A stretch of DNA of 36,632 bases from a virus. Shown here piece after piece: positions 15,601-35,941 of this stretch (position 1 is the first letter of the stretch; every line of letters starts with the position of its first letter). Position numbers and translations under genes: made by a program. Under the pieces are notes generated by a model. It was given only the letters and a program-made list of their open reading frames with translations, ran no database searches and was not told where the DNA came from. Where the stretch lies: IMG/VR virus record IMGVR_UViG_3300020213_001060, positions 1 through 36,632 of that record; one strand, written 5' to 3'.

Positions 15601-16743
15601 TACGCCGGCAGTAAATCTTGCATATACGTCTCCTAACTCAATTGTTGAAACTGAGTTAATCTGGAAAGCATGAAGTCCGCCAGTAGCAGTATTATAAACT
15701 GTTCCAGCATTAACAGCGTCTCCAAGGACGATACGATTAGCTGCGGTAGTAGATAGAACTACGATATCAAGAGTGCCTGCTTGATTTCTAACAGCAATGA
15801 TGTTAGTACCATTTTGCTCACGGATAAATCCGGTAAGCGGAACGTTAGTTCCCGTTCCGTCATGAACAATGTATCCATCAACATCAAGATTACCTGGTAA
15901 ATAAACTAAATCAGAAACACCAGCTCCGATTTTAATTCTATTCAAAGTATCAATACCAATCATAGAAATATCGGCAGTTAAACCAACATTTCTACCAATC
16001 ATAAATTGATTGTTTGGAAATCTTATTGTGCCCGTTGCCGCTACGGTGGTCGTTCCATGAGCGGTAGTTCCTAAGGAGGCATAGCCATCAACGAAGGAAT
16101 TTAATACTCTAAGATTTTGACTTGCGCCCAAGGTAAGTCCATTGCCACTTGTATTAAGTGCCATTCTCCAACTGTTATTAGTTTCATCCCAAGTAAGAGT
16201 TGAGAAATCGGTTGGCGTATAAATAGTACCACCGGAAGTATAAGCTCCACTACCTTCAGAACCAATTAATGAAAAACTAGTTCCCGTAGTAGCTACGGCC
16301 GGAAAAGTGCCATTGGCAGCGACGTTACCTAAAACGCCTATCACCGTAATCATAACCTGAGCACCTACAGTAATACCATGGGCAGACGTAGTTAATACGA
16401 TAGGCGTTGCATTAGTGGCTGCTGAAACAGTAGCTATAGAGGTAATTCCTCTTTCAATGGCGACACCAGCTAAGGTAGTAGGAACGCCAATTGGGGCTGT
16501 AGCCTTTAACCAATCATAACTATTAATATGGAAATAATAACCATCATTTCCACCAAGAGATTGATTGGGTTTTAGAAAATTATCAACCTTTGAACTAACT
16601 ATTCTATTGACAATAATATTAGTTAACTGGTTAGTTGGATAACCAGAAAAGGTACCGACTGTGTCGGGCGTGTCATTTACAATCCACTCCACATAATTGG
16701 AAAGGCTTGTATTGTATGCTCGCATGTAGTACTGAATTGCCAT
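12631..16743 (-). CDS. Giant repetitive tail-fibre protein, 1370 aa
   Basis: This Thr/Ala/Gly-rich fibre has an N-terminal head (1-100) and an inserted FCCH-like module at 101-175. Two scaffold blocks follow, each with an F/L-W-x-E-T-x-x-S/Y-W-R-x-A-x-N-T pattern (SWRMALNTSG and YWRFAVNTDG). The long shaft has about 89-residue repeats (TFNDTxEAxRxTPVSSGTT, QAQNAxTTGGA, LSSGTG, TAGNxxLQTGAV, RVSVNPTF). The C-terminal beta domain (last ~95 aa; GTYAVLATNDYIAI to GTQWSLS) is also found as the small protein at 16813. Length and repeats fit a trimeric shaft. AGGAGA precedes the ATG. It has four DGY triplets. It probably contributes to receptor binding; the attachment end is inferred to be the N-terminus. 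Confidence 0.85.
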   Translation of the reverse strand: MAIQYYMRAYNTSLSNYVEWIVNDTPDTVGTFSGYPTNQLTNIIVNRIVSSKVDNFLKPNQSLGGNDGYYFHINSYDWLKATAPIGVPTTLAGVAIERGITSIATVSAATNATPIVLTTSAHGITVGAQVMITVIGVLGNVAANGTFPAVATTGTSFSLIGSEGSGAYTSGGTIYTPTDFSTLTWDETNNSWRMALNTSGNGLTLGASQNLRVLNSFVDGYASLGTTAHGTTTVAATGTIRFPNNQFMIGRNVGLTADISMIGIDTLNRIKIGAGVSDLVYLPGNLDVDGYIVHDGTGTNVPLTGFIREQNGTNIIAVRNQAGTLDIVVLSTTAANRIVLGDAVNAGTVYNTATGGLHAFQINSVSTIELGDVYARFTAGVVAPTIMQVTAGAGQTGQTLTLQAQNGGTGSTTGGIAQVMSGTGSSFSGTVDLSTGGVVKVRVHPTTAPAAANNSTIELFNNNLRFDDLQTLPFIFQETTAGATATHLTVQAQNAATTGGNLLLSSGTGAGTAGNVIIKTGNTNQIIVTPTLTTILGNLLVNGTTTSVASTVVEIADRVINLNSSANQFPGTTVPLPTQLTGFAVDRGSTDNTTKRAYHGLFWSETDSYWRFAVNTDGYTAQNVLTTTLPVIGSHFLVQPSASVPVTAALIPTVGGFRTLNNTVSLASRNAAGTQDLIQASTDSTNHLIWGSPTQNAGHIFNTTTSTIYDFQVNSVSTYQIQPISNGTTTLQATSGVTALVYNQATTGSATGAPTTLQAQNAATTGGALILTSGTGATTAGNLQLQTGAVDRVVVHPDFTEFRDTAEALRITPVSAGTTLITYASTVTTAQIDQTATGSATGALMFIKAQNAATTGGELRLSSGTGGTTAGNANIQTGGVTKVSVNPTFTTFNDTAEAVRITPVSAGTTQVTFATGITSVSFNQTATGGATGAPWTIQAQTGASGTGGAISLIAGNATTTGGNAIVSSGTGATAGNVNLQTGAVTRVSINPTFTTFNDTVEALRVTPVSSGTTQITYASTVTAAQINQTATAGATGAPMTHQAQNAVTTGGALNLSSGTGVTAGNTNLQTGAVTRVSVNPTFTTFNDTIEALRVTPVSSGSTLITFASTVTAATVNQTTTGGATGANLTIQAQNAVTTGGNAVITSGTGATAGNVQLQTGAVDRIIVHPTYTEFRDMAEAVRIVPVSSGISYIQFASTVTTSGIAQADTVVNAATGAPLAVIAQHATGTTTVGGALLLSSGTGTTTNGAVNLQVGTVTTASLVTNKFVFNKGRRRNVTQISSAGGTYAVLATNDYIAITTVAASFTINLPTTPTLGDTYEIKDTTGNASPTFVVTIGGNGTNIDGAASIPITTGYAAVTVTYTGTQWSLS
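13000..14560 (-). repeat. Tandem ~270-bp coding repeats of the fibre shaft
   Basis: The EFRDT/TFNDT landmark recurs at about 14345, 14065, 13752, 13482 and 13217. Spacings are about 280, 313, 270 and 265 bp, with partial units at both ends. The 313-bp unit holds an extra insertion of about 14 residues (ISLIAGNATTTGG). Protein repeats are close, while codons differ between copies. Confidence 0.85.
16219..16443 (-). repeat. FCCH-like beta module inserted in the 1370-aa fibre
   Basis: Residues 101-175 follow the pattern TPIVLTTSAHGITVGAQVMI, GVLGNVAANGTF, SFSLIGSEGSGAYTSGGT. They split VAIERGI from TDFSTLTWDETNNSWR, which are nearer to each other in the second scaffold copy (VDRGSTDNTTKRAYHGLFWSETDSYWR). 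Confidence 0.7.
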
Positions 16744-16812
16744 AGATTCTCCTAGAGAGATGTCTCTTTATTAGATTATGACCATTCTAAATACGTAGAA
16801 TTCTGTAACTTC

Positions 16813-19979: not shown

Positions 19980-20067
19980 GTTTTATCTTTTGTACGTATA
20001 TTCACAAGTATACTAAACTTTTAGCATATCTTCAGGAAATTTTAATCGCTAGACAACTAAGGCTTTC

Positions 20068-21312: not shown

Positions 21313-21321
21313 GGAAATATA

Positions 21322-22052
21322 ATGCCAAGAATATCTCCAGACGGATATGATGTATTAGTTATTCCTTTAACACAAGGTACATCTACTCACATTAATGATG
21401 GTACTGCGGGAACGGCCGGAGATTTTGTTCAATTCGGGGCGCCGGTTAACAATGCAACGGGCTTACTCAATATAAATAATAAAAGAAATGCTCTTTATAT
21501 ACCGGGATCTATTCTTATTTCTAGCGTGCGTAATGGGGCTGGAGGGGCTAATAATATTACAGCCTCACCAAATGTTTCTCTTTCAGGATGGGTCTTTATG
21601 AGAAAGTACCCCTCAGTAGCTGGTGAGATTTTAATAAACAATATTTTATAAATGCTTGGAGTTATCCATTTTTAACATTTGGTTTTCAAATGCATACAAC
21701 TCAAGATGGTCAGCTCGATCTTTACATTACGAGTGGCGGAGTATTACAAACGCAATTACGTTGCCCCGCTAATTATGGAATTCCCGTAGGTAGATGGTGC
21801 CATCTCGGTGGAACTTGGGATGGAACTACAATGAATATGTACATTAATGGAAGTTTAGCTACTTCTGCCGCTTACACAGCGACTATTGATTATAATACTT
21901 CTGGCAGTCCAGGGCAATGGTATGTTGGGGGCATTCCAGGTACTAGCGTTAATCAAGAATCTTCAATTATAGTGCAAGACATAAGAGTTGCTAATATAGC
22001 TAGGCCACAATCTTATTTTGCAAACATATATTACAATGGATTTTTACCTTAA
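21322..22052 (+). pseudogene. LamG-like fibre gene split by a one-base frameshift
   Basis: Frame 1 (21322-21651) gives 109 aa ending at TAA. The rest of the domain continues in another frame. If a single T is added in the T4 run at 21629-21632, translation proceeds FNKQYFINAWSYPFL and on through 22052, giving about 243 aa. The joined product aligns with the intact paralogue at 22062 (YFSKQHTANTWSGVF; WCHLGGTWDG versus WCHIGLVYDG; ANIARPQSYFANIY versus ANIARPQSYFQNVY), so it is one LamG (concanavalin-A-like) domain. It lacks the C-terminal YYK module of its paralogues. It could be a real inactivation, homopolymer phase variation, -1 frameshifting or a sequencing error. AAGG precedes the first ATG. 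Confidence 0.75.
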
Positions 22053-22061
22053 GGCGGAATA

Positions 22062-23000
22062 ATGGTTGGAACAAGAGTAGATCCTGATAATAATGATATT
22101 GTAGTTTGGAAATTTGATGATGCGGCAGCACCGTTCATCAACTCTTCTACCTCTACCTCTGCGCCCTCGCATGCTGTCTCAGATTTAGCTACCCTATCAG
22201 GGACTGGTACTGGCGCACCTAAGCTTCAACAACCAAGCCCATTTGCAGCTACGGGCAATAATACTTCTGTTTTATTTTCAGGCAATAATGCAGGCTCTCC
22301 CAGAAATTATATTTTAGGAGCTAATGCCGTTGTTCCTCAATCTCCCGTTACATTTTCTTGTTGGCTTTATTTAAGAATTTATGCAAATGGATTAACTCAA
22401 CATTATTTTTCAAAACAGCATACAGCTAATACATGGTCTGGAGTTTTTGCTCAAGTAGGATTACAAAATAGAACATACACTTCCCAATCAACTGCTTTTG
22501 ATCTATTCATAGCTCCAAGTACTGGCGGTTCTATAGTGCTCGATGCCGGTAACAATATCCCAATTCAAACTTGGTGTCATATAGGGCTAGTTTATGATGG
22601 CTCTTTTGTTTATGGATATCTTAATGGAAATTTAGTTGGTCAAGTGGCTTCTACAGGGGCAATCAACTATGGTAATAATGGGCCTTGGTTTTTTGGAGGT
22701 CCACTTGGATCTGGTAGCGTAGAAGAGGGAGCTTACTCTATTTGTGATTTTAGAATTGCGAACATAGCTAGACCTCAATCATATTTTCAAAATGTTTATA
22801 GGCAAGGTATGTTACAATCTGATTCTGGACAACCAATCACTATTTATTACAAGCTAAGAGCATATGATCTTTCTTGTTCCACAATAACCCCCGTTTATTG
22901 GATATCAACTACTATTAATTATGATGACGCCCCAGCAACACCATGTGGAACTCTTGGACCAATAGATATTTTAGACACTTGGACTATAATAGGTTTATAA
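22062..23000 (+). CDS. LamG-like fibre/appendage protein with C-terminal YYK module
   Basis: This 312-aa protein has a disordered Ser/Thr-rich N-terminus, then a LamG/concanavalin-A-like domain at about 85-240 (PVTFSCWLYLR, WCHIGLVYDGSFVYGYLNGNLVG, FRIANIARPQSYF). A short module follows from residue 264 (YYKLRAYDLSCSTITPVYW, DTWTIIGL) that recurs in the genes at 23010, 31812 and 35949. LamG domains bind sugars or proteins, so a receptor-binding part is plausible. AAGG sits before the ATG. It lies between the frameshifted paralogue and the larger paralogue in one operon. Confidence 0.8.
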   Translation: MVGTRVDPDNNDIVVWKFDDAAAPFINSSTSTSAPSHAVSDLATLSGTGTGAPKLQQPSPFAATGNNTSVLFSGNNAGSPRNYILGANAVVPQSPVTFSCWLYLRIYANGLTQHYFSKQHTANTWSGVFAQVGLQNRTYTSQSTAFDLFIAPSTGGSIVLDAGNNIPIQTWCHIGLVYDGSFVYGYLNGNLVGQVASTGAINYGNNGPWFFGGPLGSGSVEEGAYSICDFRIANIARPQSYFQNVYRQGMLQSDSGQPITIYYKLRAYDLSCSTITPVYWISTTINYDDAPATPCGTLGPIDILDTWTIIGL

Positions 23001-23009
23001 AAGGATAAC

Positions 23010-24518
23010 ATGGCTAAAGTAAATCCAGACTCAAATGACATACTAGTTTATAAATTAGATGAAACCTCAGGCGTTTATAGAAATACAGGGGTTACTTCAC
23101 CTAATAATAGTTTAACTGATTTGAGTGTATCAGGAACAATAATAAGAACAGCAACCGGAATTCATGGTGGAAATTGTCCGTGGTTTCCTGGAACTGGTAA
23201 CTATCCAACTGGCGCATCAGCTACTAGAAATTATATCTTTGGCGCCAATACTATTAATCCACAACCACCATTTACATTATCTTTCTGGCTTAATCAAAGA
23301 GGGTATATTAACAATGGTAGCTTTCAACAATATGTAAGAAAACTATTTAGAGATCATACTATTACCAATACCTCTGCGTCCCCCTTCTTCTCATTTGAAA
23401 TATCAAATGCTTCCACAAACAGCGGACAAGATTTATATTTTGGCTTTAGTAACTCAGCAACTACTCAGACTAATATGACCATTACAGATTTTCCAATGCC
23501 ATTGGCACAATGGAATCATATAGGAATGACTCATGATGGAACCAATATTAGAGCTTATTTAAACGGCTGTCAGTTAATAAGATATAGCGGCGCTACTCAA
23601 TTAAATACATTAGCGGCAACAACTCAATCAATAGTATATAATGATGTCAGTTATGCTATTACTTCTTCTACAGGGACTTATATTCCAGGAGTTGATGATA
23701 TTGGAAATCATGGAGATGAAGTAATGACATCAGTAAGCTTACCATTTACTGTTAATTTATATGGAGCTTCTTATTCGTCTGTTTTTGCTTCTTCTAATGG
23801 ATTTGTAGAATTTGGACAAAATACAAATGCATTTGGTTTTAGCTTACCGAATGCTGGACTAGGTCCCCTTATTAACGTTTGTGAGAGAGATACTACTACG
23901 AGTGGTGGTGGATTAGGTATTTTTACCACTACAGTAGGAAGTGCCCCAAATAGAACATTTATTATTGAATGGAGAATGAACTCTTTGGCGGGAGGTACTC
24001 TAAATGCCGAAATCAAATTTTTTGAAGGTTTAGATGTTTATGAAACTTTATATACAACCTCTACCTCTGTTAATACAGTGTCTATTGGTATACAAAGTGC
24101 AGCAGGTGGTAAAAGTACCGTTTTTAGTAATGCTACTACAATCCCAGCAGCTAACACAAGATTAATTTTTACTCCTACAAGCTCCGCCTCAGGATATTTA
24201 GCAATTGGAGCTACTCCACCATATTTAGTAACTTCCTCTCCAACAAAGGAAGAAGCTAATTTTATGATCTCTGATCTTAGAATAGCTAATATTGCTAGGC
24301 CTTTATCATATTTTCAGCAAATTTATAATTATGGAGCACTACCAAATCAATTAACAGATCAAATCGTTTATTATAAGCTAAGAGTTTATGATTTATCTTG
24401 TTCTACTCCGACACCAGTAACTTGGGTAGATACTACAATTAGACTAGATAATGCGCCAGTATTTCCATGTGGAGGGCCTTATAGCGATATCGAGATAATT
24501 GAGTGGTGGGCCGCATGA
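23010..24518 (+). CDS. LamG-like fibre protein with a second domain nested inside, 502 aa
   Basis: The first part matches the LamG paralogues (PFTLSFWLNQR, WNHIGMTHDGTNIRAYLNG) up to about residue 200. Residues about 205-395 are a different beta domain (SLPFTVNLYGASYSSVFASS, NGFVEFGQ, RTFIIEWRMN, NAEIKFFEG), like the PFxxxFYGxxYxxVxVSSNGFxxFG domains of bacterial surface proteins. Then the LamG end resumes (LAIGATPPY, MISDLRIANIARPLSYF), followed by the YYKLRVYDLSCSTPTPVTW module and EIIEWWAA. The second domain is thus inserted between LamG strands. AAAAGGA precedes the ATG. It is the last gene of the LamG group. Confidence 0.8.
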   Translation: MAKVNPDSNDILVYKLDETSGVYRNTGVTSPNNSLTDLSVSGTIIRTATGIHGGNCPWFPGTGNYPTGASATRNYIFGANTINPQPPFTLSFWLNQRGYINNGSFQQYVRKLFRDHTITNTSASPFFSFEISNASTNSGQDLYFGFSNSATTQTNMTITDFPMPLAQWNHIGMTHDGTNIRAYLNGCQLIRYSGATQLNTLAATTQSIVYNDVSYAITSSTGTYIPGVDDIGNHGDEVMTSVSLPFTVNLYGASYSSVFASSNGFVEFGQNTNAFGFSLPNAGLGPLINVCERDTTTSGGGLGIFTTTVGSAPNRTFIIEWRMNSLAGGTLNAEIKFFEGLDVYETLYTTSTSVNTVSIGIQSAAGGKSTVFSNATTIPAANTRLIFTPTSSASGYLAIGATPPYLVTSSPTKEEANFMISDLRIANIARPLSYFQQIYNYGALPNQLTDQIVYYKLRVYDLSCSTPTPVTWVDTTIRLDNAPVFPCGGPYSDIEIIEWWAA

Positions 24519-24561: not shown

Positions 24562-26187
24562 ATGGGAATGAAATTTATTAGAGGAATGGTTTACCCAAAT
24601 GCCAACAATACTTTCGCTGGTGGAACTGGTGGTGTTACATGGAGAATGAAATGGGCCTATGAATTCTGGGGATTTTGTGTCAATGGAACGGCCTCCACAA
24701 CTATTCCTGGCGGATTTCCAACAAATGGAGTTAATTTTCCAACCAACTTTACGGGTGGCACTAGCTTACTAGCTTCTGGGACAGATGGCTCTCACGATGC
24801 CGTTTCTGGAGATTTATTCAGCGGAGATTGCATATTCACATCCGCTTCTGCTACATTTAATACCGCTATGGTAGGTAAAGCTATAGTAATTTGGAAGGCT
24901 AACTCCAATAGTTCTGAAGACTCTATTTATCTAATTACTAGAGTAATTTCTGCTACTCAATTAATGATTAATATTAACACAGGTGGTACACCTAATGCAT
25001 CTACTAAGCATCCATCGATGACTGCAAGAACCGGAGTAAATTATAGGATTGTAGATATGGTTGTTGGGGCGGTCGCCGGATTTGTTAATGGTACTTTTAT
25101 GGTATTTCAAACGGATGCATCTAGTATTAATCCGGGCCAAGCAAACTCCCAATTTTCTTTAACTCAACAATGGGATACTAGTGCAAATACAACTAATTTT
25201 GGAAATACATCAAGCGCTTTGTGGGCTGCCGGTATGTCTGGCTCTGGCTCTTGGAATGGATCAACATTAACCGTATCTTCAGTAACCGGCGCAGGCGTAT
25301 CACCAATTGTAGTTACTACTTCTACTCCACATGGATTTATAACTGGACAAACAGTTAACATTGCTGGTGTTGGTGGCAATACCAATGCTAATGGTATGTT
25401 CTTAGTAACTTCTACTGGAGCAAATACTTTTTCTTTATCAGGACTTGCTGGCGTTAGCAGCGGAGGATTGTATTATGGTACCGTACCTGGAACAACTACT
25501 GGTAATGGTACTTATACTAGCGGCGGTACAGTTTATAATGGATTTCAAAATGATGGATATGCCACTTTTTTTGCGGCTAATCCTAATACCAACGCAGCCT
25601 ATTCTGGTGGACAGACTGCCATCACTATGATTGCAGATAAAACGTTTATGCTTTGTCATGTTAGAGAGCAAGATTTATTTCAAAATAACCTTCAAATAAG
25701 TTTTCATTTTGAAATACCAACCAGACTTTATCCCCAGGGACAAGATTTACATCCAATGGCAATTCTATTTACGACTACTAACGGTTTAAATACTAGTAGT
25801 ACAAGTGGAAGTTATGGTGGCGGATTTACTATGCGCACTCATAGCGGTGATGCCGTTACTAATAGACCATACAGAACTCTAGTCAAGGCCTTAAGAGGTG
25901 ATGGCACCCCTGATGTATTCGGTCAATCATTAAGCGATTATAGAGTTGGTTATAATACGATTGCGGGAACTATTCCAATTTCTGATGGACTACTATGTCT
26001 TCCTGGTATTACTAATCAATATCAACTTGCGAGAATTAGATTAAGAACAGTTAAATTTACAGGAACACACGTACCAAAGCATCACAGAATTGGTTTAAAT
26101 GGCGAGTTTATACAGATGCAAAACGGTATTTGTTGGCCCTGGGACAATGCAATCATCCCACATCAACTTATATTGTTTGGAGCTTAA
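24562..26187 (+). CDS. Appendage protein family A, copy 1 (541 aa)
   Basis: This is the first of three paralogues (others at 27672 and 32397). Family A landmarks are a start of M-x-x-K-(F/Y)-(I/V/L)-R, YEFWGFCVNGTAS, MVGKAIVIWKANSNSSEDSIY, YRIVD, INPGQANSQF, MIADKTFMLCHVRE, EIPTRLYPQGQDLHPMAI, YGGGFTMR and an end with NGEFIQMQNGICWPWDNAIIPH. Copy 1 alone has an FCCH-like module at about 235-326, inserted after GSGSWNG. One DGY is present. Family function is unknown; fibre or appendage is inferred from beta-rich composition and neighbours. GGAG precedes the ATG, and the B-type partner follows 9 bp after the stop. Confidence 0.8.
   Translation: MGMKFIRGMVYPNANNTFAGGTGGVTWRMKWAYEFWGFCVNGTASTTIPGGFPTNGVNFPTNFTGGTSLLASGTDGSHDAVSGDLFSGDCIFTSASATFNTAMVGKAIVIWKANSNSSEDSIYLITRVISATQLMININTGGTPNASTKHPSMTARTGVNYRIVDMVVGAVAGFVNGTFMVFQTDASSINPGQANSQFSLTQQWDTSANTTNFGNTSSALWAAGMSGSGSWNGSTLTVSSVTGAGVSPIVVTTSTPHGFITGQTVNIAGVGGNTNANGMFLVTSTGANTFSLSGLAGVSSGGLYYGTVPGTTTGNGTYTSGGTVYNGFQNDGYATFFAANPNTNAAYSGGQTAITMIADKTFMLCHVREQDLFQNNLQISFHFEIPTRLYPQGQDLHPMAILFTTTNGLNTSSTSGSYGGGFTMRTHSGDAVTNRPYRTLVKALRGDGTPDVFGQSLSDYRVGYNTIAGTIPISDGLLCLPGITNQYQLARIRLRTVKFTGTHVPKHHRIGLNGEFIQMQNGICWPWDNAIIPHQLILFGA
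25264..25540 (+). repeat. FCCH-like beta module in family A copy 1
   Basis: It codes for SPIVVTTSTPHGFITGQTVNI, GVGGNTNANGMFLVT and a long C-terminal loop ending TYTSGGTVYNG. The paralogues at 27672 and 32397 have no such module at this place. Confidence 0.75.
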
Positions 26188-26196
26188 GGGAAAATA

Positions 26197-27660
26197 ATGG
26201 CTACACACCTTTGCAGAGATTATCTAACTCAAAACATATCTACAACTAGACAATATGTTTATACATACCTTTTATCTATATTTATGAGAAGGATATTATC
26301 ATACTCTTATATCGGAGATACTAACTATCCAATTAACGCTATTGGAACATTATTAATTGCTACTGGTGATATTAACCCAACTGGTGCTGCTAGTTTTCCT
26401 ATGGGCAATAAAGCTGGAATCAATATTGGAACTCAAAAAGAATTTTATGTTTCCATTCCTGTTAGCGTTAGATCTGTCACAGGAAATGATATTGGAAGGT
26501 TGCTTGTTCTTAAAAGTACAGCTAATCCTACTTTCAACTCTGGAATTTTCTTGATTGTAGGAATTGAGATATCTACAAACTCTTATGTTATTGATTATAG
26601 AACTTTAGGAGATAAACCTCCAGTTGAAGCTACGGATACCATTCAATGGTGGCTATATGAAAAAGACTTAAATTGCCCATCTCAAGGCGCACCTAATTCT
26701 ATTAAAACATCAACAGAGTATAGGGGAGATGGTAATTCTACTACTCCAAGAATAATTCTACAGAGTCCGCATGTAACTGGTTATCAAGTAAGAATTTGTA
26801 ACGAAAGCACGGGAGATGTGGCAACTGATTTGGCGGCTAGAAACTGCCCAGCAATGACTGTATCACCAGGATTTAGTGGAAATAGTGCTGGAGATTTTGC
26901 TGCATTTGGAAAGCACTTTCATGCTCCAATGTGGTACAATAGCAGTAGTACTAATTTTCTAGGGGGCGCTCCGGGATTTGGAGATGGTGGTTATTCTGGA
27001 ATTCAATTCAGATTAACATTAATTGGAGATGATACTGGACAAGGCGTAGTAATGTATTGCCGTCGTCCTGGTAATGGAACCTTACCAGATTCTAATATTC
27101 TTTGTGTAGGACTTGCTGAAAATGAACCATCTCCATTACCAGTTAATAATCATGCTAGATTATTTGTTCTTGGTACTGGATTTACAGGTAGCGATGGTTT
27201 TGGATCTAGATGCATTAATGATGGTGCGTTATTCGCAATGCTAGGATCTCCTGCGGGCTCCTTTTTCCTTTCTAGAGGATCATCACAGGGAATGGGATCT
27301 ACACCATTCGGAACTCCTTGTGTTACTTCCGCCGCAATGTGGACTTACGTAACTGGCGTTTCTCAAGGAGCTAGTCCTATTTTCGATAGTCTTTCTACAG
27401 ATAACCCATTTACTAGCTCAACAGAAGTGTTACCAATAGACATTATGCAAGCAACACTAGATAGATGGGGGGTTGTTTCTAGTGGACAAAACGCTTCAGT
27501 TTATCCATTTGCTCCAAGAACAATTGGCACTATCCCTCACCTTAGAGAAGGGCGCTCAAACTTTGGAGATTTCTCCCCTACAACAGATTTTGCAAGATCA
27601 TATCAACATCTAAGAAGGGGACTATACATTCCATGGAATGGTCCAAACTTAATCCCATAA
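26197..27660 (+). CDS. Appendage protein family B, copy 1 (487 aa, no inserted modules)
   Basis: This is the simplest member of the three-copy B family (others at 29277 and 33677). Its blocks are CRDY near the N-terminus, RRILSYSYIGDTNYPIN, FYVSIPVSVRSV, IGRLLVLKSTANPTFNSGIF, YVIDYR, VEATDTIQWWLYE, PRIILQSPHVTGYQVRICNES, LTLIGDDTGQGVVMYCRRPG, ENEPSPLPV, PFTSSTEVLPIDI, LREGRSNFGDFS and the closing QHLRRGLYIPWNGP. It serves as the reference for mapping the insertions in copies 2 and 3. Family function is unknown. It has a good AAGGGAAA ribosome binding site and is paired with family A copy 1. Confidence 0.8.
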   Translation: MATHLCRDYLTQNISTTRQYVYTYLLSIFMRRILSYSYIGDTNYPINAIGTLLIATGDINPTGAASFPMGNKAGINIGTQKEFYVSIPVSVRSVTGNDIGRLLVLKSTANPTFNSGIFLIVGIEISTNSYVIDYRTLGDKPPVEATDTIQWWLYEKDLNCPSQGAPNSIKTSTEYRGDGNSTTPRIILQSPHVTGYQVRICNESTGDVATDLAARNCPAMTVSPGFSGNSAGDFAAFGKHFHAPMWYNSSSTNFLGGAPGFGDGGYSGIQFRLTLIGDDTGQGVVMYCRRPGNGTLPDSNILCVGLAENEPSPLPVNNHARLFVLGTGFTGSDGFGSRCINDGALFAMLGSPAGSFFLSRGSSQGMGSTPFGTPCVTSAAMWTYVTGVSQGASPIFDSLSTDNPFTSSTEVLPIDIMQATLDRWGVVSSGQNASVYPFAPRTIGTIPHLREGRSNFGDFSPTTDFARSYQHLRRGLYIPWNGPNLIP

Positions 27661-27671
27661 GAGAGTAAATA

Positions 27672-29264
27672 ATGGCAACCAAGTTCGTTAGAGTACTAAA
27701 TTTTTCTACTGGAAGTACAACTGCCAGAATGACATACTTTCTTAAAATAATGTATGAATTCTGGGGGTATTGTATTTTTGGGGGCGCTTCGGTTGGATCT
27801 CCTGGTACAAATGCATTCGCTGCCACTACCCCTACTGGTGGAGCTTTGCCAGCAAACTTTCTTGGAGTTGCCACTACTATTGCTGTCGCTTCTAACGGAG
27901 CCGTTTTACCCCAGGGAACTATTAACGTAGCTTCCACCACAGAATTTCCAGCTTCTGGAACTATTTTCGTAAAAACTACAACCGGAACACAAACTATAAC
28001 ATACACTGGTGTAGGTGCCACAACCTTTACTGGTTGTACTGGTGGTACTGGTACTATGACCACTGGTGACAACGTTACAAGTTCAAGTTTAATGACCGTT
28101 GGAACTGACGGAGCTACTACTGCAACGACCATTTATAGAATGGATGGTTATCAAGATTTTACTGCTGCTAGCGGACCTTTTACTGCTAGTATGGTTGGTA
28201 AACAATTGGTAACCTGGAAAGCAGGATCTAATAGTTCAGAAGACTCTATTTACAACATAATTGCATTTAAATCTCCAACAAATATAGTTGTAAATGTTAA
28301 CAATGGTGGAACTCCAAGTTCAGGTAATGATGGTTATAGGCCCTCATTTACAACTAGATCAGCAATTAATTATAGAGTAATTGACGTTGCCGTTGCTGGA
28401 GCTTTTACAGGTATTGCTGATGGTAATTTTATAGTGTTTCAATTAGATGGAAGTATTGTGAATCCAGGTCAAGCTAATCCACAACTCCAATTATTTGTTG
28501 CCTCCACTAATCAAAGATTAGATTTTAGAATGTCTCCTAATGGAACTTGGAACGGAACTGCATTTGGAGTAGATGGAAGTAGTACTATTCTCCCAAACCT
28601 CGCATCCGCCAATAGCAGTAATTCTATGCAAAATACCACTTCTGCCGGTCAATGTACTATAACATTAATTGGTGATAAAGAATTTTTAATAGTATATGGT
28701 AAAGATTCAAATCATGCATCTTCAAATGGATTTCACTTTCATTGGGAGATACCAGAAAGATTATATTCTCAAACACAAGATCCTAATCCGTTCGCAGTTC
28801 AAATAAATGGATATGGTAACCCATCCTCCCCAAATTTTTTCAATTCAACGGGCACGACATATGGATACGGTGGTGGATTTGTCATGCGATGCAATGATGG
28901 AGTTTTCCGTAACCATCGTATGTCTGTAAAAGCCTTAATAGGTGATGGAGATACAGATAGACTTCAAGTTTCAGCAACACAATTACCTAAAGTACCTGGA
29001 AATTCATTAGTAGATATTAGGGCCGGGGCTAATCTAGTTACTGGTCAACTAGCTAACTCAACCGGATTTCTTTCGCTAGTTGGAGTTGTAAATCAGTATT
29101 CATTAGCTAGAGCTAGAGTTAAAAAAATAAGATTCGCAAATAGTTTTATGAAGGTTTTTACAAGATTTAATGGCGGCAGTGATGGTGATTTTATTCTTTT
29201 AAATCAGGGAGTTGCTCTTCCATGGGATAAAGTGGTCTTACCATATACTTGGTTCCCGTACTAA
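27672..29264 (+). CDS. Appendage protein family A, copy 2 (530 aa)
   Basis: Family A blocks are clear: MYEFWGYCIFGGAS, MVGKQLVTWKAGSNSSEDSIY, NYRVIDVAVAG, VNPGQANPQLQL, LIGDKEFLIVYGKD, EIPERLYSQTQDPNPFAVQ, YGGGFVMR and DGDFILLNQGVALPWDKVVLPY. It differs from copies 1 and 3 by a VAST-type module at about residues 66-136 (see 27868-28080), inserted between PANFLGVA and LMTVGTDG. It lacks the FCCH-like module of copy 1. Two DGY triplets (MDGYQDF, NDGYRPS) are present. GAGAG precedes the ATG; the B partner follows 12 bp after the stop. Confidence 0.8.
   Translation: MATKFVRVLNFSTGSTTARMTYFLKIMYEFWGYCIFGGASVGSPGTNAFAATTPTGGALPANFLGVATTIAVASNGAVLPQGTINVASTTEFPASGTIFVKTTTGTQTITYTGVGATTFTGCTGGTGTMTTGDNVTSSSLMTVGTDGATTATTIYRMDGYQDFTAASGPFTASMVGKQLVTWKAGSNSSEDSIYNIIAFKSPTNIVVNVNNGGTPSSGNDGYRPSFTTRSAINYRVIDVAVAGAFTGIADGNFIVFQLDGSIVNPGQANPQLQLFVASTNQRLDFRMSPNGTWNGTAFGVDGSSTILPNLASANSSNSMQNTTSAGQCTITLIGDKEFLIVYGKDSNHASSNGFHFHWEIPERLYSQTQDPNPFAVQINGYGNPSSPNFFNSTGTTYGYGGGFVMRCNDGVFRNHRMSVKALIGDGDTDRLQVSATQLPKVPGNSLVDIRAGANLVTGQLANSTGFLSLVGVVNQYSLARARVKKIRFANSFMKVFTRFNGGSDGDFILLNQGVALPWDKVVLPYTWFPY
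27868..28080 (+). repeat. VAST-type beta module in family A copy 2
   Basis: It codes for GTINVASTTEFPASGTIFV, TQTITYTGVGATTFTGCTGG and TGTMTTGDNV. The same pattern occurs in family B copies 2 and 3. Copies 1 and 3 of family A run straight across this point. Confidence 0.75.
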
Positions 29265-29276
29265 TAAGGTTTTATC

Positions 29277-31802
29277 ATGGCACACTATACTTGCAGAGAT
29301 TATAACGCTACTTCAACAGGCACTTCTAGCACAGCTAGAACATACATATCGTCATATTTATTAGTTCTATTTTTACGTAGAATTTTGGGGTACACTTACG
29401 TCGGTGACACCAACTATCCAATCAATAATTTCGGTTCATTACTAATCGCCTCTGGAGATACCACTCCTACAGCTTCCGCTCCAACTTTCCCAGGTGGCAA
29501 TAGAGTGGGTATAGCTAATAATGGCGCTAATATTGAGGTACAAATACCACTTAATATTAAAACTGTAACTTCATTTGATATTGGTAGAACATTAGTTATT
29601 AAAAGTACTAGATATCCTACAAGGAATTCTGGCATTTTTGGTATCACTTCAATTCAACAAGGAAATACAACAACTATTACAGGTGGATCAAATAACGTAT
29701 CGCTTCCACAAGGAACAATTTACGTTAACTCTGTATCAGGATTTCCAACAAGCGGAAGTTTTTTTGTGGGGGCAAGCACCACTGTTGCATCTACATCAAA
29801 TGCTGTTACTTTTGGTACTACTACTACGACCGCGTCTGCCTCTAATGGTGTTGCACTTCCAAATGGAAATGTTAACGTAGCCTCTACTGTTGGTTTTCCA
29901 ACAAGCGGAACTATTTCAGTTGTGACTAGTGCTGGAACACAAACAGTCACTTATACTGGAACTAATGCAACCCAATTTACAGGTTGTACGGGTGGTACTG
30001 GTACAATGACTACTGGAAATCTTGTATCATTACCAGCATCCATAACTATTAACGTAATTTCTACAACAGGATTTCCAACTACTGGAACCTTTTTATTAAG
30101 TACATCTGCTGGAACTTCAACAATAACTTATACTGGAATAACTGGAACTAGCTTTACTGGTTGTACGGGCGGCACGGGCACAACATTTACGGGAGGAACA
30201 GTTCTTATTGGTAATGGTTTTCAAACAATTACATATGGCACCGTTACTAATGCTAATACTACTATTGCGTCTGGCTCTAACGGCCAATCCTTGCCCCAAG
30301 CAACCATTAACGTCGCTTCAACAACGGGATTTCTTGCTAGCGGTGTTATCACGGTAACTACTGGAGCTGGTTTACAAACAGTTACTTATTCAGGAACTAC
30401 TGGAACAAGTTTCACAGGATGTACTGGTGGAACTGGAGCCATGACTACAGGCGGAGCTGTTACGCAACAAGCATTTACTAGCGCAACTGGTGGTACTGGA
30501 ACTTTAGTAACTGGTCAATCTATCACCAATCAAAATAAGTATGTTATTGATTATCGTGGAAACGGTGATGCAGCTATTGTAGAAGCTAACGATACCGTTA
30601 TGTGGTGGTTATACGAGAGAGATTCAAGCGCTCCACAAAATGGGGCTGGCAACGGAACTAGCGGCTATAATAGCGTAGGATCCTCAGTTACTCCGCGAAT
30701 CATTCTTCAAAGTCCACATGCTTTGGCATGGCAGGTTAGAGTTTGTAACGAATCAACTGCTGATAGTGCTCGTAACATTTTTAACGGTGCTGGCGCTCCA
30801 ATAAGTGCGGCCCCCGGTTTTGGTGGAAATGGTGTTGGCGACTTCCCAATTGGAGGAGATTCTTTACATAATTTAAATTTCTTTAATCTCACTGGTAATG
30901 TAGCAAATCAAGACTATTCTGGTGGTAATGGATTTGGTGACGATGCAGGTAATTCTGGTCAAGTAATGAGATATACGCTTATTGGCGATGATACTGGACA
31001 ATCCGTTACTATGATTATGAGAAGAGCCTCAAATCTTACAAGTCCACGCTCTTTTCTTGTAACATTTGGTTTGCCAGATAATGAGCCGGTGCCACTACCA
31101 ATAAAACCAATAAGAAGACTATATGTATTAGGTAATACTCGTGGAGATGTTGGTAACGGCACTGGAAATGATGTTTCTCTGCAAGTAGGCTACACTAACG
31201 GCATTTCACCAATACAAGGAATAACATTTCATGAATCTCCTATTTCTTGTCATCCATCCATGTTGGCATATGTAACCAGTAATAATCAAGGAGCGGGACC
31301 AATGTACGATGCCAACGGCGGTGATTGTCCATTTACCTCATCCACAGAGTTATTACCAGTAGACCTAACTGCTGGAACTGTTTACTCGTGGAACGGCGGT
31401 ACTCCAGTACAAGCACTTGCTTTCTATCCAAAAGTTTTGGGGCAGCTTCCAATTATTAAAGTAGGAAGAGGAAATTTTGCAGAATATACTTTAACAACAG
31501 ATAATTCAACTTGGTCGGTTCAAACTACATCAGGAAACGGTATTTCACCAATTCAGATAACAACTACGGCTGCAAACACATTAATAACTGGTCAATCAGT
31601 AGCAATTCATAGCGTTGGCGGAAACACTAATGCGAATGGAACGTTTATTATAACCGTTATAAATAGCACTAATTTTACATTAAATGGTACAACTGGTAAT
31701 GGTGCTTTTACTTCTGGAGGAACGGTATTACGCGGTGGACAATGGCAGCATTTAAGAAGAGGAATCTACATACCGTGGAATGGTCCAGCGGTTGTTCCAT
31801 AA
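29277..31802 (+). CDS. Appendage protein family B, copy 2 (841 aa, module-expanded)
   Basis: The family B scaffold is intact (CRDYNATS, RRILGYTYVGDTNYPIN, IGRTLVIKSTRYPTRNSGIF, YVIDYRGNGD, VEANDTVMWWLYE, PRIILQSPHALAWQVRVCNES, LIGDDTGQSVTMIMRRA, PFTSSTELLPVDL, QHLRRGIYIPWNGP). The protein is 354 residues longer than copy 1. The excess is mainly a tandem block of VAST-type modules (29662-30528), placed between SGIFGITSIQ and KYVIDY, and one FCCH-like module (31510-31731) placed before the closing GGQWQHLRRG. Smaller differences are spread over the scaffold. No DGY is seen. AAGG precedes the ATG. Confidence 0.82.
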   Translation: MAHYTCRDYNATSTGTSSTARTYISSYLLVLFLRRILGYTYVGDTNYPINNFGSLLIASGDTTPTASAPTFPGGNRVGIANNGANIEVQIPLNIKTVTSFDIGRTLVIKSTRYPTRNSGIFGITSIQQGNTTTITGGSNNVSLPQGTIYVNSVSGFPTSGSFFVGASTTVASTSNAVTFGTTTTTASASNGVALPNGNVNVASTVGFPTSGTISVVTSAGTQTVTYTGTNATQFTGCTGGTGTMTTGNLVSLPASITINVISTTGFPTTGTFLLSTSAGTSTITYTGITGTSFTGCTGGTGTTFTGGTVLIGNGFQTITYGTVTNANTTIASGSNGQSLPQATINVASTTGFLASGVITVTTGAGLQTVTYSGTTGTSFTGCTGGTGAMTTGGAVTQQAFTSATGGTGTLVTGQSITNQNKYVIDYRGNGDAAIVEANDTVMWWLYERDSSAPQNGAGNGTSGYNSVGSSVTPRIILQSPHALAWQVRVCNESTADSARNIFNGAGAPISAAPGFGGNGVGDFPIGGDSLHNLNFFNLTGNVANQDYSGGNGFGDDAGNSGQVMRYTLIGDDTGQSVTMIMRRASNLTSPRSFLVTFGLPDNEPVPLPIKPIRRLYVLGNTRGDVGNGTGNDVSLQVGYTNGISPIQGITFHESPISCHPSMLAYVTSNNQGAGPMYDANGGDCPFTSSTELLPVDLTAGTVYSWNGGTPVQALAFYPKVLGQLPIIKVGRGNFAEYTLTTDNSTWSVQTTSGNGISPIQITTTAANTLITGQSVAIHSVGGNTNANGTFIITVINSTNFTLNGTTGNGAFTSGGTVLRGGQWQHLRRGIYIPWNGPAVVP
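29662..30528 (+). repeat. Tandem VAST-type modules (about four units)
   Basis: Successive units carry YVNSVSGFPTSG, VNVASTVGFPTSG, INVISTTGFPTTG and INVASTTGFLASG. Three of the four are followed by TxTYxGTxxTxFTGCTGGTG or close variants. The first unit lacks the second half, and a partial half-unit ends the block. Codons differ between units, so the expansion is not very recent. Confidence 0.8.
31510..31731 (+). repeat. FCCH-like beta module near the C-terminus of family B copy 2
   Basis: It codes for SPIQITTTAANTLITGQSVAI, GGNTNANGTFIITVINSTNF and TGNGAFTSGGTV. It separates NFAEYTLTTDNSTWS from GGQWQHLRRG. Copy 1 runs from NFGDFSPTTDFAR into SYQHLRRG without it. Confidence 0.78.
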
Positions 31803-31811
31803 TAGGAAATC

Positions 31812-32387
31812 ATGGCAATAGCACAAACTTCAAACATACTATTATCATTTTCCGATGGATTTAGCTTACCTAGTACTGGTGATCATTGGGATGGCTATGC
31901 GGGCACTACTCCTATACAGTTTACAGATGGAGTGTTCCAAGGCTATATGCTAGATTGGGGATCTTACGATAATCAAAACGTAAACTCACCATTTTTTAAT
32001 CAACCATATGCTGGATACAACTCAAATTGGGGCGGCGTCACTTCTGATAACATGGTAGATTCATTTAAGAATGAATTATATACTGGATACAATACCAATT
32101 GGGGAAAGTACGAACAACCAATTGAAGAATCTTTATTTGATATAGATATTAATTCTGTTATTGATCACCCTAAAGATCAAACTATTTATTATAAACTAAA
32201 GGGATGGAACCCTTTAACATCTTCATGGGAAGCTTGGGTTATTTCGGAAAATATTACTGGCCGTCCAGAATTATTTGATCCAGTACCTGGTCGTCATCCA
32301 GCTAATGTAGAGCGAGATGTCTTCAAAACACCGCCAAGTGGAAATAATTTAGTTAATATAGTTATAGTATCACGTTGGATAGAATAA
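31812..32387 (+). CDS. Short appendage protein with tandem GYNxNWG repeats and YYK module (family C)
   Basis: This 191-aa protein has an N-terminal part with repeated units around DWGSYDNQN, AGYNSNWGGVTSDN and TGYNTNWGKYEQ, rich in Asn, Trp and Tyr. From about residue 120 it has a module like those ending the proteins at 22062, 23010 and 35949: IYYKLKGWNPLTSSWEAWV, a Pro-rich loop, PPSGNNLVNIVIVSRWIE. The same module occurs as a C-terminal domain in LamG fibres, so this protein probably assembles at the same site. One DGY is present (WDGYAGTT). AGGAA precedes the ATG. It lies between A-B pair 2 and pair 3. Confidence 0.72.
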   Translation: MAIAQTSNILLSFSDGFSLPSTGDHWDGYAGTTPIQFTDGVFQGYMLDWGSYDNQNVNSPFFNQPYAGYNSNWGGVTSDNMVDSFKNELYTGYNTNWGKYEQPIEESLFDIDINSVIDHPKDQTIYYKLKGWNPLTSSWEAWVISENITGRPELFDPVPGRHPANVERDVFKTPPSGNNLVNIVIVSRWIE

Positions 32388-32396
32388 GGAACTTTC

Positions 32397-33677
32397 ATGG
32401 CTAGAAAATATCTAAGAGGATTACAATACACTACATCGACTAACGGTCGTGATATTCCTATTTTCATGAGAATTTGCTATGAATTTTGGGGATATTGTGT
32501 TAATGGAACTTCTTCATTAACTACTCCAGGTGGTATGCCAACCACTCCAACCAGCGCGCCTGCTGGTTTTTTTGAAGGGGCATCAGTTTTAGCTACGGGA
32601 AATGATGGCGTTACTTCTGATTTGGGAATTAATTTTGTCTCTTTGTCAGGCAATTTCAGTACATCTATGATTGGTAAACATATTACTATCTGGTCTCATA
32701 CTGATACAGATAGTACTGATAATTCTATTTACAGAATTATCAATGTTTTAGGCGCCACTCAAATGATTATTGCTCCATTTAGTGGCGGCACTAGAGATAT
32801 TACTACTCTTAAAAATAACTTAACATCTCGCTCTGCTCTTAATTATAGAATTATTGATGTAATAGCAGCATCTCAATTAGGTATCGCTAGCGGAAATTAT
32901 TGGGTTGGAACTCTATCGGGAGCATCAACCATTAATGTTGGGCAAGCCAATAGTCAATTTCAAATGTTATTAAGAGGCTCTTCTACTCCATTTGGACAAT
33001 TTGGTATGGTAGGATCTCCTGCTGGCACATGGACAGGTTCAGCTTTTACCGGAACAACTTTAACAGAACGAACCCCTACTAGCTCAAATTTTACAGGAAC
33101 TACATCTAATGTTATCGGAAACATAACATTGATCGCAGATAAAGATTTCTTCATAGGTCATATTAGAACTCCTAATACAAATAATGCTGGGCTGTATTTT
33201 TATAATATTATACCAAAAAGAATATATACACAAGCACAAGATACTAACCCGCTAACTATAATGGTGGCTGGTAATAACCTTCTTGCATCTGTAGCCACTG
33301 ACTCTCATACTAATAATTTTGCTATGGTAGGTTTTGATGGAACTACAAGAACCTGCCAATTAATGACAAAGAATTTAGTAGGTGATGGTGTTACGGGCAC
33401 AGCATTCACAGTAGGCCCTAACTTAACTAATCTCCTCGCCGCAACATCAAGATTAGGTAAAGTATTTTACTCAGAAGCTATTATTTCCACCATCTCTGCG
33501 GCAGGCCAATATTCTTTAGCAAGAGCAAAATTAAGACCTATTGCGTTTACGAGTAACATCTTCCCCGCCTTCCATTTGATAGGTGATAATGGGGAATTTA
33601 TACACGTAGGAAACGGCGTATTATGGCCATGGGATGGCTCAGTTCTACCATATAGTCTTCTACCTTTAGGCACCTAA
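32397..33677 (+). CDS. Appendage protein family A, copy 3 (426 aa, no inserted modules)
   Basis: This is the shortest family A member. Its blocks are YLRGLQYTTS, CYEFWGYCVNGTSS, MIGKHITIWSH, NSIYRIINVLGATQMII, YRIIDVIAAS, INVGQANSQFQM, LIADKDFFIGHIRT, PKRIYTQAQDTNPLTIM and DNGEFIHVGNGVLWPWDGSVLPY. It has neither the VAST-type insert of copy 2 nor the FCCH-like insert of copy 1, so it marks the basic scaffold. No DGY is present. AAGGAA precedes the ATG. Its stop shares a base with the B-copy 3 start (TAATG at 33675-33679), so A and B partners are translationally coupled here. Confidence 0.8.
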   Translation: MARKYLRGLQYTTSTNGRDIPIFMRICYEFWGYCVNGTSSLTTPGGMPTTPTSAPAGFFEGASVLATGNDGVTSDLGINFVSLSGNFSTSMIGKHITIWSHTDTDSTDNSIYRIINVLGATQMIIAPFSGGTRDITTLKNNLTSRSALNYRIIDVIAASQLGIASGNYWVGTLSGASTINVGQANSQFQMLLRGSSTPFGQFGMVGSPAGTWTGSAFTGTTLTERTPTSSNFTGTTSNVIGNITLIADKDFFIGHIRTPNTNNAGLYFYNIIPKRIYTQAQDTNPLTIMVAGNNLLASVATDSHTNNFAMVGFDGTTRTCQLMTKNLVGDGVTGTAFTVGPNLTNLLAATSRLGKVFYSEAIISTISAAGQYSLARAKLRPIAFTSNIFPAFHLIGDNGEFIHVGNGVLWPWDGSVLPYSLLPLGT

Positions 33678-35941
33678 TGACAATTTTTATCTCAAGAGAT
33701 TATAATCCAACTACTTCAGGTTACGTTAGTCAACCTTTTGGAGGCTCTTTTAGCACAAATAATACTGGTAGGTTTTATGTTGGATTTATGTATCAACTAA
33801 CTCTTTTTCTACAAAAAGTTTTAGGATACACTGTTGTTGGTCAAACTTCCTGGAACATGGATAACAATAACATTAAATCTCTTGTTGTTACCGCTGCCAC
33901 CAATACTACGCCAATTACAATTACTACTGCTTCTGCTCATGGATTATCAGATGGTTACGTAGTTAACATTACGGGCGGAACTGGTAATAGCGCTGTCAAT
34001 GGAACTTGGAAAGTAACTGTTTTAAATTCAACTCAAGCAACACTATATGGTACTTTTGGTAATGGCACTTATACGGCTAGCACCGCAACAATGACTACCG
34101 GATTTCTGTATGCTTCAGGTATGGTAACCGATGGTTATGGAGCTGGCCTTAATTTTGGAGCGGGATCATTTTTTGATGTCTCTATCCCTATTACTCAAAG
34201 AAAAGTGGTCGTTGGCGATGTTGGTAAAATATTGGTTTTGAAAAGTAATTCTTTCCCAACTAAAAATACCGGACTCTTTAAGATTTCTGCTCGTAATACG
34301 GGCAATACAACTACAATTGCGGCGGCTTCAAATGGCGCCACCCTACCACAAGCTACTATCAACGTAGCCTCTACGGCTGGATTCCCCGCCAGCGGGACTA
34401 TTTTTGTTACTACAGCTACTAACACTTCTACAGTTACTTATACGGGAACAACTGGAACTACTTTTACAGGATGTTCAGGTGGTACCGGGACTATGGCAAC
34501 TGGTGGTGAGGTAGCTAATCTTAATAGATACATTATTGATTATAGATCAACCGAAACTCCCCCTGTTGAAGCTACTAATTCTATTGATTGGTGGCTATAT
34601 GAAACAGAAGTAATTGCTGCTGGTTATTTATCCAAATTTTATGGCGGTAACTGGGGGGTCGGCGGATCGACTAACACAACTCCGATCGTAATTCAGGGGG
34701 ACAATAACTTCCCTCATACATGGATAACTGGACAAAAGGTTGTTGTCAGTGGAACTGGTAATGTAAATGCCAACGGAACTTGGACTATTACGCAGGCAAC
34801 CGATAGTACTCGCTTTTCTTTAAATGGTTCTGTTGCTGGTGGTGCATTTGGTTCAGGTGGCACACTATCTCTTTTTGGATATACTGGCGGTCCGGACACA
34901 GCTAATAGCAGAATCATTTTACAAAGCCCTCATAGCTCTGCATGGCAAGTAAGAATATGTGCCGAGCCAATGGGCGCCAATTTACCTTGCGTATCTATTG
35001 CTGTTGGTTATGGCGGAAATTCGGCGGGAGATTTTCCGGCTGGCGCAACCAGTACCCATGTAGTAGAATTCATGGATATTAATTCTGCCTCAAATACATC
35101 ACTTGCTAACACAGTGCCAGGCGGCGGACATGTTACTCTTGTTTCTCGCATGTCAATGGTGGGAGATGGGTACGGCCAATATGTTGCTGCTTTTATGAGA
35201 GAAACAGGTGGCAATAATGGGATGTTGGTTTTCGGGATATCTGATAATGAGCCGGCTCCTTTACCAGATAATCCAAGCAGAATATTCTGTTATGGCGGAG
35301 CGCCTACAACAGATTTCGGCACTATTAGATTAAGAATGGGCGCGGCCACTAATGTTGGCGTTACTATAGGCACTAATACTCCTGAATTTTGTGCACTAAC
35401 AAGTTGGGCGAATCTAGATGGCACCTCAGCAACCAATCCTATGTTATCTGCTAATGCTGGTGACTCTCCATTTACTAGCACTACTGAAATTTTACCAATA
35501 GAAGTGTGGAGGGCAACAACTGCTGATGTTACTTTAACTACAGCAATTATCTCTCCTTTTAGTTACAACCCTGGATTTATGGGAACAGCTCCAGCATTAA
35601 GAAATGGTAGAACTAATTTTGGTGATTTTAGTTTGACATCAGATGAAGTTACCTCTCGCGCTATCTCTGCCGCCACCAATGCTTCTCCTATCCAAATTAC
35701 TGCGGCAGCTAATGCTCTAACAACTGGTCAAACTGTAACCATATCTGGAGTTTTAGGCAATACCGCTGCTAATGGTACTTGGATAGTTACTGTATTAAAT
35801 AGTACCCAATTTACATTAAATAACTCTGTAGGTAATGGAACATACACAAGTGGTGGCACAGCAACCGGATGTGCTCGTTGGCTTCATTTACAAAATGGAA
35901 TATATTTACAATGGAATGGACCTAGTGGATTAACCCCATAA
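33677..35941 (+). CDS. Appendage protein family B, copy 3 (754 aa, four inserted modules)
   Basis: The family B scaffold is present (SRDYNPTT, VVGQTSWNMDN, VGKILVLKSNSFPTKNTGLF, YIIDYRSTETPPVEATNSIDWWLYE, SRIILQSPHSSAWQVRICAEP, SMVGDGYGQYVAAFMRE, DNEPAPLPD, PFTSTTEILPIEV, LRNGRTNFGDFS, LHLQNGIYLQWNGP). Compared with copy 1 it carries an FCCH-like module at 33874-34100, a VAST-type module at 34294-34519, a second FCCH-like module at 34653-34870 and a third at 35650-35868. Three DGY triplets are present. The coupled TAATG start is firm. Beta-rich, probably surface-exposed; role inferred as fibre or appendage. Confidence 0.82.
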   Translation: MTIFISRDYNPTTSGYVSQPFGGSFSTNNTGRFYVGFMYQLTLFLQKVLGYTVVGQTSWNMDNNNIKSLVVTAATNTTPITITTASAHGLSDGYVVNITGGTGNSAVNGTWKVTVLNSTQATLYGTFGNGTYTASTATMTTGFLYASGMVTDGYGAGLNFGAGSFFDVSIPITQRKVVVGDVGKILVLKSNSFPTKNTGLFKISARNTGNTTTIAAASNGATLPQATINVASTAGFPASGTIFVTTATNTSTVTYTGTTGTTFTGCSGGTGTMATGGEVANLNRYIIDYRSTETPPVEATNSIDWWLYETEVIAAGYLSKFYGGNWGVGGSTNTTPIVIQGDNNFPHTWITGQKVVVSGTGNVNANGTWTITQATDSTRFSLNGSVAGGAFGSGGTLSLFGYTGGPDTANSRIILQSPHSSAWQVRICAEPMGANLPCVSIAVGYGGNSAGDFPAGATSTHVVEFMDINSASNTSLANTVPGGGHVTLVSRMSMVGDGYGQYVAAFMRETGGNNGMLVFGISDNEPAPLPDNPSRIFCYGGAPTTDFGTIRLRMGAATNVGVTIGTNTPEFCALTSWANLDGTSATNPMLSANAGDSPFTSTTEILPIEVWRATTADVTLTTAIISPFSYNPGFMGTAPALRNGRTNFGDFSLTSDEVTSRAISAATNASPIQITAAANALTTGQTVTISGVLGNTAANGTWIVTVLNSTQFTLNNSVGNGTYTSGGTATGCARWLHLQNGIYLQWNGPSGLTP
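33874..34100 (+). repeat. FCCH-like beta module 1 in family B copy 3
   Basis: It codes for TPITITTASAHGLSDGYVVNI, GNSAVNGTWKVTVLNSTQ and GNGTYTAST. It lies between NMDNNNIKSL and the scaffold that resumes at GLNFGAGSFFDVSIP. Confidence 0.72.
34294..34519 (+). repeat. VAST-type beta module in family B copy 3
   Basis: It codes for ATINVASTAGFPASGTIFV, STVTYTGTTGTTFTGCSGG and TGTMATGGEV, between GLFKISARN and YIIDYR. This is the same scaffold site that holds the tandem block in copy 2. Confidence 0.78.
34653..34870 (+). repeat. FCCH-like beta module 2 in family B copy 3
   Basis: It codes for TPIVIQGDNNFPHTWITGQK, GNVNANGTWTITQATDST and AGGAFGSGGTL, between WWLYE...YLSKF and SRIILQSPH. Copies 1 and 2 have only a short loop there. 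Confidence 0.72.
35650..35868 (+). repeat. FCCH-like beta module 3 in family B copy 3
   Basis: It codes for SPIQITAAANALTTGQTVTI, LGNTAANGTWIVTVLNSTQF and GNGTYTSGGTA. It sits at the same C-terminal site as the module in copy 2. Confidence 0.78.

Follow-up and report, generated by a model that had tools for sequence, protein, structure and literature searches.

Phage host-recognition proteins diversify through domain exchange, and accounts of it mostly concern the swapping of terminal domains. Fraser et al. 2006 reportedly described promiscuous Ig-like domains on phages. Phage receptor-binding proteins exhibit domain mosaicism and shuffling (Smug et al., 2023; PMC10684548). Tail sheath proteins carry additional Ig-like domains, which are more numerous in large-genome phages and are proposed to function in adhesion or stability (PMC9230969). 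In the phages described below, we consider it probable that an ancestral pair of genes, A-B, multiplied and that whole modules were then inserted into loops of the encoded proteins, sometimes lost and in places nested.

Two scaffold families and their modules

The window is the full 36,632-base IMG/VR virus record IMGVR_UViG_3300020213_001060. PHROGs and Pfam assign dUTPase, nucleotidase, exonuclease and IMPDH-like genes upstream, after which comes a block of genes that includes those for a beta-roll protein and for LamG proteins. Beyond these lie six ORFs that, as the original prediction held down to their coordinates, form two three-copy families, A and B (Table 1). Members are 38–42% identical to A1 in family A and 39–49% identical to B1 in family B, and are alignable end to end apart from extra blocks. 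Homology between the A and B scaffolds is not claimed, since profile comparison found nothing beyond brief, weak similarity (probability ~20%, E ~0.001). PHROGs gave neither scaffold a confident family, only LamG and beta-roll domains were recognized among the locus neighbors, and the A1 protein had no matches in GenBank phages. Context and module type suggest that the proteins are putative tail appendages or adhesins, in which modules may enlarge or vary the binding surface.

Table 1. Genes and modules of the A/B locus and related features, in window coordinates
Feature	Position	Strand	Evidence
FCCH-like near N terminus of 1370-aa fibre (ORF 12631-16743)	16219..16443	-	alignment, separate search in G001
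LamG protein D1, 312 aa, without extra domain	22062..23000	+	
LamG protein D2, 502 aa, with extra ~180-aa domain	23010..24518	+	
Third inserted domain (D2 aa 207-390)	23628..24179	+	
A1, family A, 541 aa, one FCCH-like module	24562..26187	+	ORF list, alignment, profile search
FCCH-like, scaffold-A site 222 (A1 aa 241-323)	25282..25530	+	profile search
B1, family B, 487 aa, module-free	26197..27660	+	ORF list, alignment, profile search
A2, family A, 530 aa, one VAST module	27672..29264	+	ORF list, alignment, profile search
VAST, scaffold-A site 64-65 (A2 aa 68-135)	27873..28076	+	profile search
B2, family B, 841 aa, nested VAST array and one FCCH-like module	29277..31802	+	ORF list, alignment, profile search
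Outer VAST 5' part, scaffold-B site 121 (B2 aa 132-185, model 1-50; end overlaps next module)	29670..29831	+	
Inner VAST 1, complete (B2 aa 183-250)	29823..30026	+	
Inner VAST 2, nearly complete (B2 aa 248-309, model 8-68)	30018..30203	+	
Inner VAST 3, complete (B2 aa 328-395)	30258..30461	+	
Outer VAST 3' part (B2 aa 394-416, model 46-68)	30456..30524	+	
FCCH-like, scaffold-B site 445 (B2 aa 751-816)	31527..31724	+	profile search
191-aa protein between pairs, module-free, kept in relatives (position in gene order varies)	31812..32387	+	
A3, family A, 426 aa, module-free	32397..33677	+	alignment, profile search
B3, family B, 754 aa, three FCCH-like and one VAST	33677..35941	+	alignment, profile search, B3 model
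FCCH-like, scaffold-B site 53 (B3 aa 72-137)	33890..34087	+	profile search
VAST, scaffold-B site 121 (B3 aa 212-279)	34310..34513	+	profile search; block pLDDT ~81-91
FCCH-like, scaffold-B site 166 (B3 aa 329-396)	34661..34864	+	profile search
FCCH-like, scaffold-B site 445 (B3 aa 664-728)	35666..35860	+	profile search; Pfam E1_FCCH above gathering score

Module profiles were seeded from the copies and iterated over all proteins, including those of G001, a record near-identical to the window; rescanning the window gave the same result as G001. The inserts are whole modules, in frame, at defined positions of a conserved scaffold, and paralogues as well as orthologues in related phages differ in whether they carry them. 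The FCCH-like copies proposed for A1 (one), B2 (one) and B3 (three) were recovered, with a weak match at A1 aa 98-143 left out of the count, and the least decorated members, A3 and B1, contain no module. VAST is likewise present in A2, B2 and B3, though in B2 it is not a single copy but an array in which one split outer module is interleaved with three inner ones. Full-module E-values of ~1e-20 to 1e-32 exclude chance for these matches. The predicted segment length of 70–90 residues fits the 83-residue FCCH-like module of A1, whereas most modules span ~66–68 residues. The copy placed in the fibre on the opposite strand is alignable with the rest and was detected independently in G001.

All FCCH-like copies are mutually alignable, including those under the Pfam gathering score (29.5 bits for E1_FCCH, PF16190), which the B3 C-terminal copy exceeds (39.1) and the A1 (24.3) and B2 (20.5) copies do not reach. 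Foldseek matched the module to the FCCH region of Uba1/Uba6 with probability 1.00 over ~80 residues (rmsd ~2–2.5, best E 2e-3); matches to TAL effectors in a PDB sequence search were repeat artefacts. VAST had no Pfam match at E≤1 (five copies tried), and one copy searched in GenBank phages found none. Its matches to PHROG 2885 and 708 (baseplate wedge/virion structural) are weak, the best (E 7e-5) being confined to a single stretch of a profile 4179 positions long. In the B3 model (mean pLDDT 64), VAST is a confident compact unit and the best-predicted part. The A1 AlphaFold model (mean pLDDT 50) was rejected as too poor for use. Since the models are moderate or poor, the assignment of modules to loops in scaffold A is based on sequence.

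Other proteins of the window also carry repeats or recognizable domains. FGE-sulfatase domains have a C-type-lectin-like fold that is also used by targets of diversity-generating retroelements, and one such domain (PF03781) occurs in a protein at 2472-3377 (minus strand). A 911-aa protein at 17244-19979 (minus strand) has repeated beta-roll matches (LbR_Ice_bind, PF21300) and is likely a fibre of YadA-head-like repeats. The tripeptide DGY occurs 31 times in the window versus 1.7 expected, with varied codons and mostly in 12631-21651 and 4240-4818 (minus strand). Enrichment is similar in several relatives (for example, L017 with 21 versus 1.1 and L185 with 19 versus 0.7), but not in G006, G008 or other viral contigs (28 versus 18).

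VAST modules nested within VAST

The VAST modules do not form tandem arrays: the incomplete copies complement one another as pieces of an outer module that complete inner modules interrupt. In B2 of G001 the multi-part array spans aa 132-416. Across proteins, VAST is split at three loops, at positions ~23, ~35 and ~48, and in the B3 model these split points fall between predicted strands (~residues 231-239, 247-249 and 260-261). The B2 of G002 reads model 1-32, complete, 33-49, complete, 46-67, which is one outer module with two interruptions. Simpler arrangements occur in G003 B3 (1-37, complete, 33-68) and, within the G005 group, in A3 (1-50, complete, 46-68) and B2 (1-23, complete, 23-68), while A1 of that group, which reaches 1255–1257 aa in G005 and G007, has several nested levels. 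G003 B2 provides an empty nested site, with an uninterrupted VAST where the window and G002 hold an inner module. The same nesting recurs at the same loop in an unrelated contig, L075.

A stack parse of all proteins yielded 24 joined pairs; over 2000 shuffles of each kind, 12 pairs were joined on average and at most 19–20. To allow for the dependence among orthologues, the VAST arrays were collapsed to six independent ones before testing, which gave 10 joins, 9 of them within 5 positions versus 2.8–3.9 expected (p 0.0002–0.0016). The parse leaves unmatched VAST fragments in A1, two each in G005 and G007 and three in G009. Dating outer against inner modules by sequence similarity was not decisive and was abandoned, rejoined outer halves being not clearly closer than the inner module to relatives' intact single VAST.

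Could the extra segments be ordinary tandem repeats, or ancestral parts of the scaffold lost from its short members? Tandem duplication does not produce partial copies that are complementary and nested, and the modules are homologous to one another and to modules in unrelated proteins. Loss certainly contributes, as at B3 site 121, where VAST occurs in one group and in the basal G009 but is absent from G005-G007. The single-pair relatives G004 and G008, however, lack every module, and we judge this explanation very unlikely.

Nested insertion after multiplication of the gene pair is our preferred reading, and VAST may be self-accepting. We tentatively suggest that its three turns act as general docking sites for additional copies, so that insertion in frame, repeated recursively, would give tree-like proteins; a process at the DNA level may assist by transferring pieces of module length from one turn-coding position to another. 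If true, this would be a general, undescribed way to build phage surface proteins.

Insertion sites across related phages and the origin of the modules

The A/B genes of the window are nearly unchanged in G001 (202.6 kb, IMGVR_UViG_3300015360_000023) and occur in diverged versions in G002 (204 kb), G003, G005 (210 kb), G006, G007 (359 kb) and G009 (481 kb), with A2 not found in G005, G007 and G009. G004 and G008 encode one A-B pair each; PHROGs and Pfam gave no tail assignment to the genes neighboring the G008 pair. That both single pairs are module-free suggests that decoration came later. Between G001 and the window, A2 has 19 nucleotide differences, 17 of them inside A2 nt 683-825, and the other five A/B genes have 0–1 each. 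This cluster resembles a recombination tract and lies in the scaffold, outside the module.

Sites were numbered on the module-free G004 proteins, with scaffolds aligned after module removal and G006 A1, which ends at the contig end, excluded from placement. This revealed five sites in scaffold A (48-54, 65, 88-92, 107 and 222) and four in scaffold B (53-56, 121-133, 166 and 445). Orthologues in different phages differ by whole modules at matching sites. A3 has FCCH at 48 and VAST at 107 in G003, G005-G007 and G009, and both sites are empty in the window and G002. VAST occupies B3 site 121 in G002 and G003 as it does in the window and in G009. Site 445 of B3 holds FCCH alone or FCCH then VAST, depending on the orthologue. 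VAST is the occupant of B site 121 in B2 and B3, whereas B1 of the G005 group has FCCH there. Gain is not always separable from loss, since gene trees within the window/G002/G003 group disagree.

In module trees, copies mostly group by site across phages and not by genome. No exact DNA repeat of at least 18 nt was found among the window's six A/B genes (counted on G001, which differs at 21 nt), and third-codon-position composition is the same in modules and scaffold. Together, these results favor rare insertion and loss over an active cassette machine. Such a machine would use homologous recombination or a dedicated enzyme to shuffle modules among the paralogues of one phage and so vary host range. 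Some observations do point toward such exchange: modules at separate locations share identical DNA tracts of 20–41 nt in G002, G003, G005, G007 and G009, and the module tree places the B2 site-445 FCCH of the window group beside the B1 site-121 FCCH of G005/G007, copies that share 71–80% of residues versus ~44–51% scaffold identity between B1 and B2. In the pairs compared, however, modules at orthologous sites match or exceed the scaffold in conservation (for example, 97% versus 85% for A1 of G005 and G007), so that copying can be mimicked. No PF00078 (reverse transcriptase) match was found in six records, which may be incomplete and in which positive controls worked, and this also speaks against a diversity-generating retroelement. 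Active shuffling therefore seems unlikely to us, and the cassette system of the original prediction, taken in that sense, is not supported.

Module conservation also bears on whether the modules do anything specific. Large phages might simply tolerate inserted beta modules that lack a particular binding function, a reading consistent with near-consensus modules at many sites, with A3 and B1 managing without any, and with the multi-domain sheath proteins of large phages (PMC9230969). Conservation equal to or above that of the scaffold suggests constraint, but a strict fold could also explain it. We regard such neutral growth as possible though doubtful.

Under our preferred model, the starting point would be one ancestral A-B gene pair for beta-rich proteins of the virion or an appendage, which then multiplied to three pairs. 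Complete FCCH-like and VAST modules of ~66–68 residues would later have entered scaffold loops in frame and occasionally been lost. The same loops would have been used repeatedly, and loops of VAST itself would have taken up more VAST, giving branched, nested arrays. Survival would require only that the frame be kept and that the module tolerate insertion at a turn, the ends of its chain presumably lying close together. Copying may have proceeded by illegitimate or homology-assisted recombination, after which modules would mostly be inherited at their site, with rare insertions and losses filtered by folding.

Wider distribution and comparison with described systems

Insertion extends to the LamG paralogues. 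Their third inserted domain, which had no Pfam match, has a homologue in the G009 orthologue of D2 (50% over 175 aa), where it lies at aa 41-222 in a different loop, and is absent from D2 of G003, G005 and G007. Its occurrence in two different loops indicates that the insertion pattern is not limited to two module types.

Peptide-pattern scans of IMG/VR confirmed 358 loci with VAST and 210 with FCCH, and those of bacterial genome records confirmed 15 with VAST. With modules masked, the carriers of 159 loci kept from the IMG/VR scans fell into 75 clusters. The modules themselves are thus common in unrelated viral proteins, and their mounting is what stands out. Neither this spread nor the VAST-in-VAST nesting nor the third domain had figured in the original prediction. 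VAST also occurs in a ~368-aa ORF distant from the appendage block (G005:C1:23065-23277 and G007:C1:262913-263125).

FCCH in E1 enzymes is itself an insertion. The phage modules share its fold (Uba1/Uba6) and, in the B3 C-terminal copy, its Pfam signature. Unlike in E1 enzymes, no other E1 domain is present here, and FCCH serves as a beta module in putative phage structural proteins, a setting in which it has already been annotated in Vibrio phages. Like phage Ig-like domains, the modules are optional beta domains, presumably surface-exposed, on putative virion proteins; Ig-like domains are mostly terminal additions, unlike the nested loop insertions seen here.

The sheath proteins offer a parallel in that a conserved core is interrupted by added beta domains, but their scaffold differs, the additions are Ig-like and not FCCH/VAST, and self-nesting is not mentioned in the passages of PMC9230969 consulted. 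The mosaicism of Smug et al. (PMC10684548) concerns domains common to otherwise unrelated phage structural proteins, frequent among receptor-binding and baseplate proteins, and the modules here are likewise shared by unrelated carriers. They differ in being placed within the loops of a conserved scaffold and within one another, and neither 'nested' nor 'FCCH' appears in that text. A search of open-access full texts gave no direct precedent for nested domain insertion in phage proteins. The related genomes form a series with internal-loop insertion, loop reuse, recursive self-nesting and empty sites for comparison, which allows one to ask where in a protein a domain is tolerated and by what route branched proteins come about. 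The window proteins are a form of phage domain mosaicism in which modules are mounted in internal loops and nested, and they show a way in which phages can make their surface proteins larger and still keep them intact.
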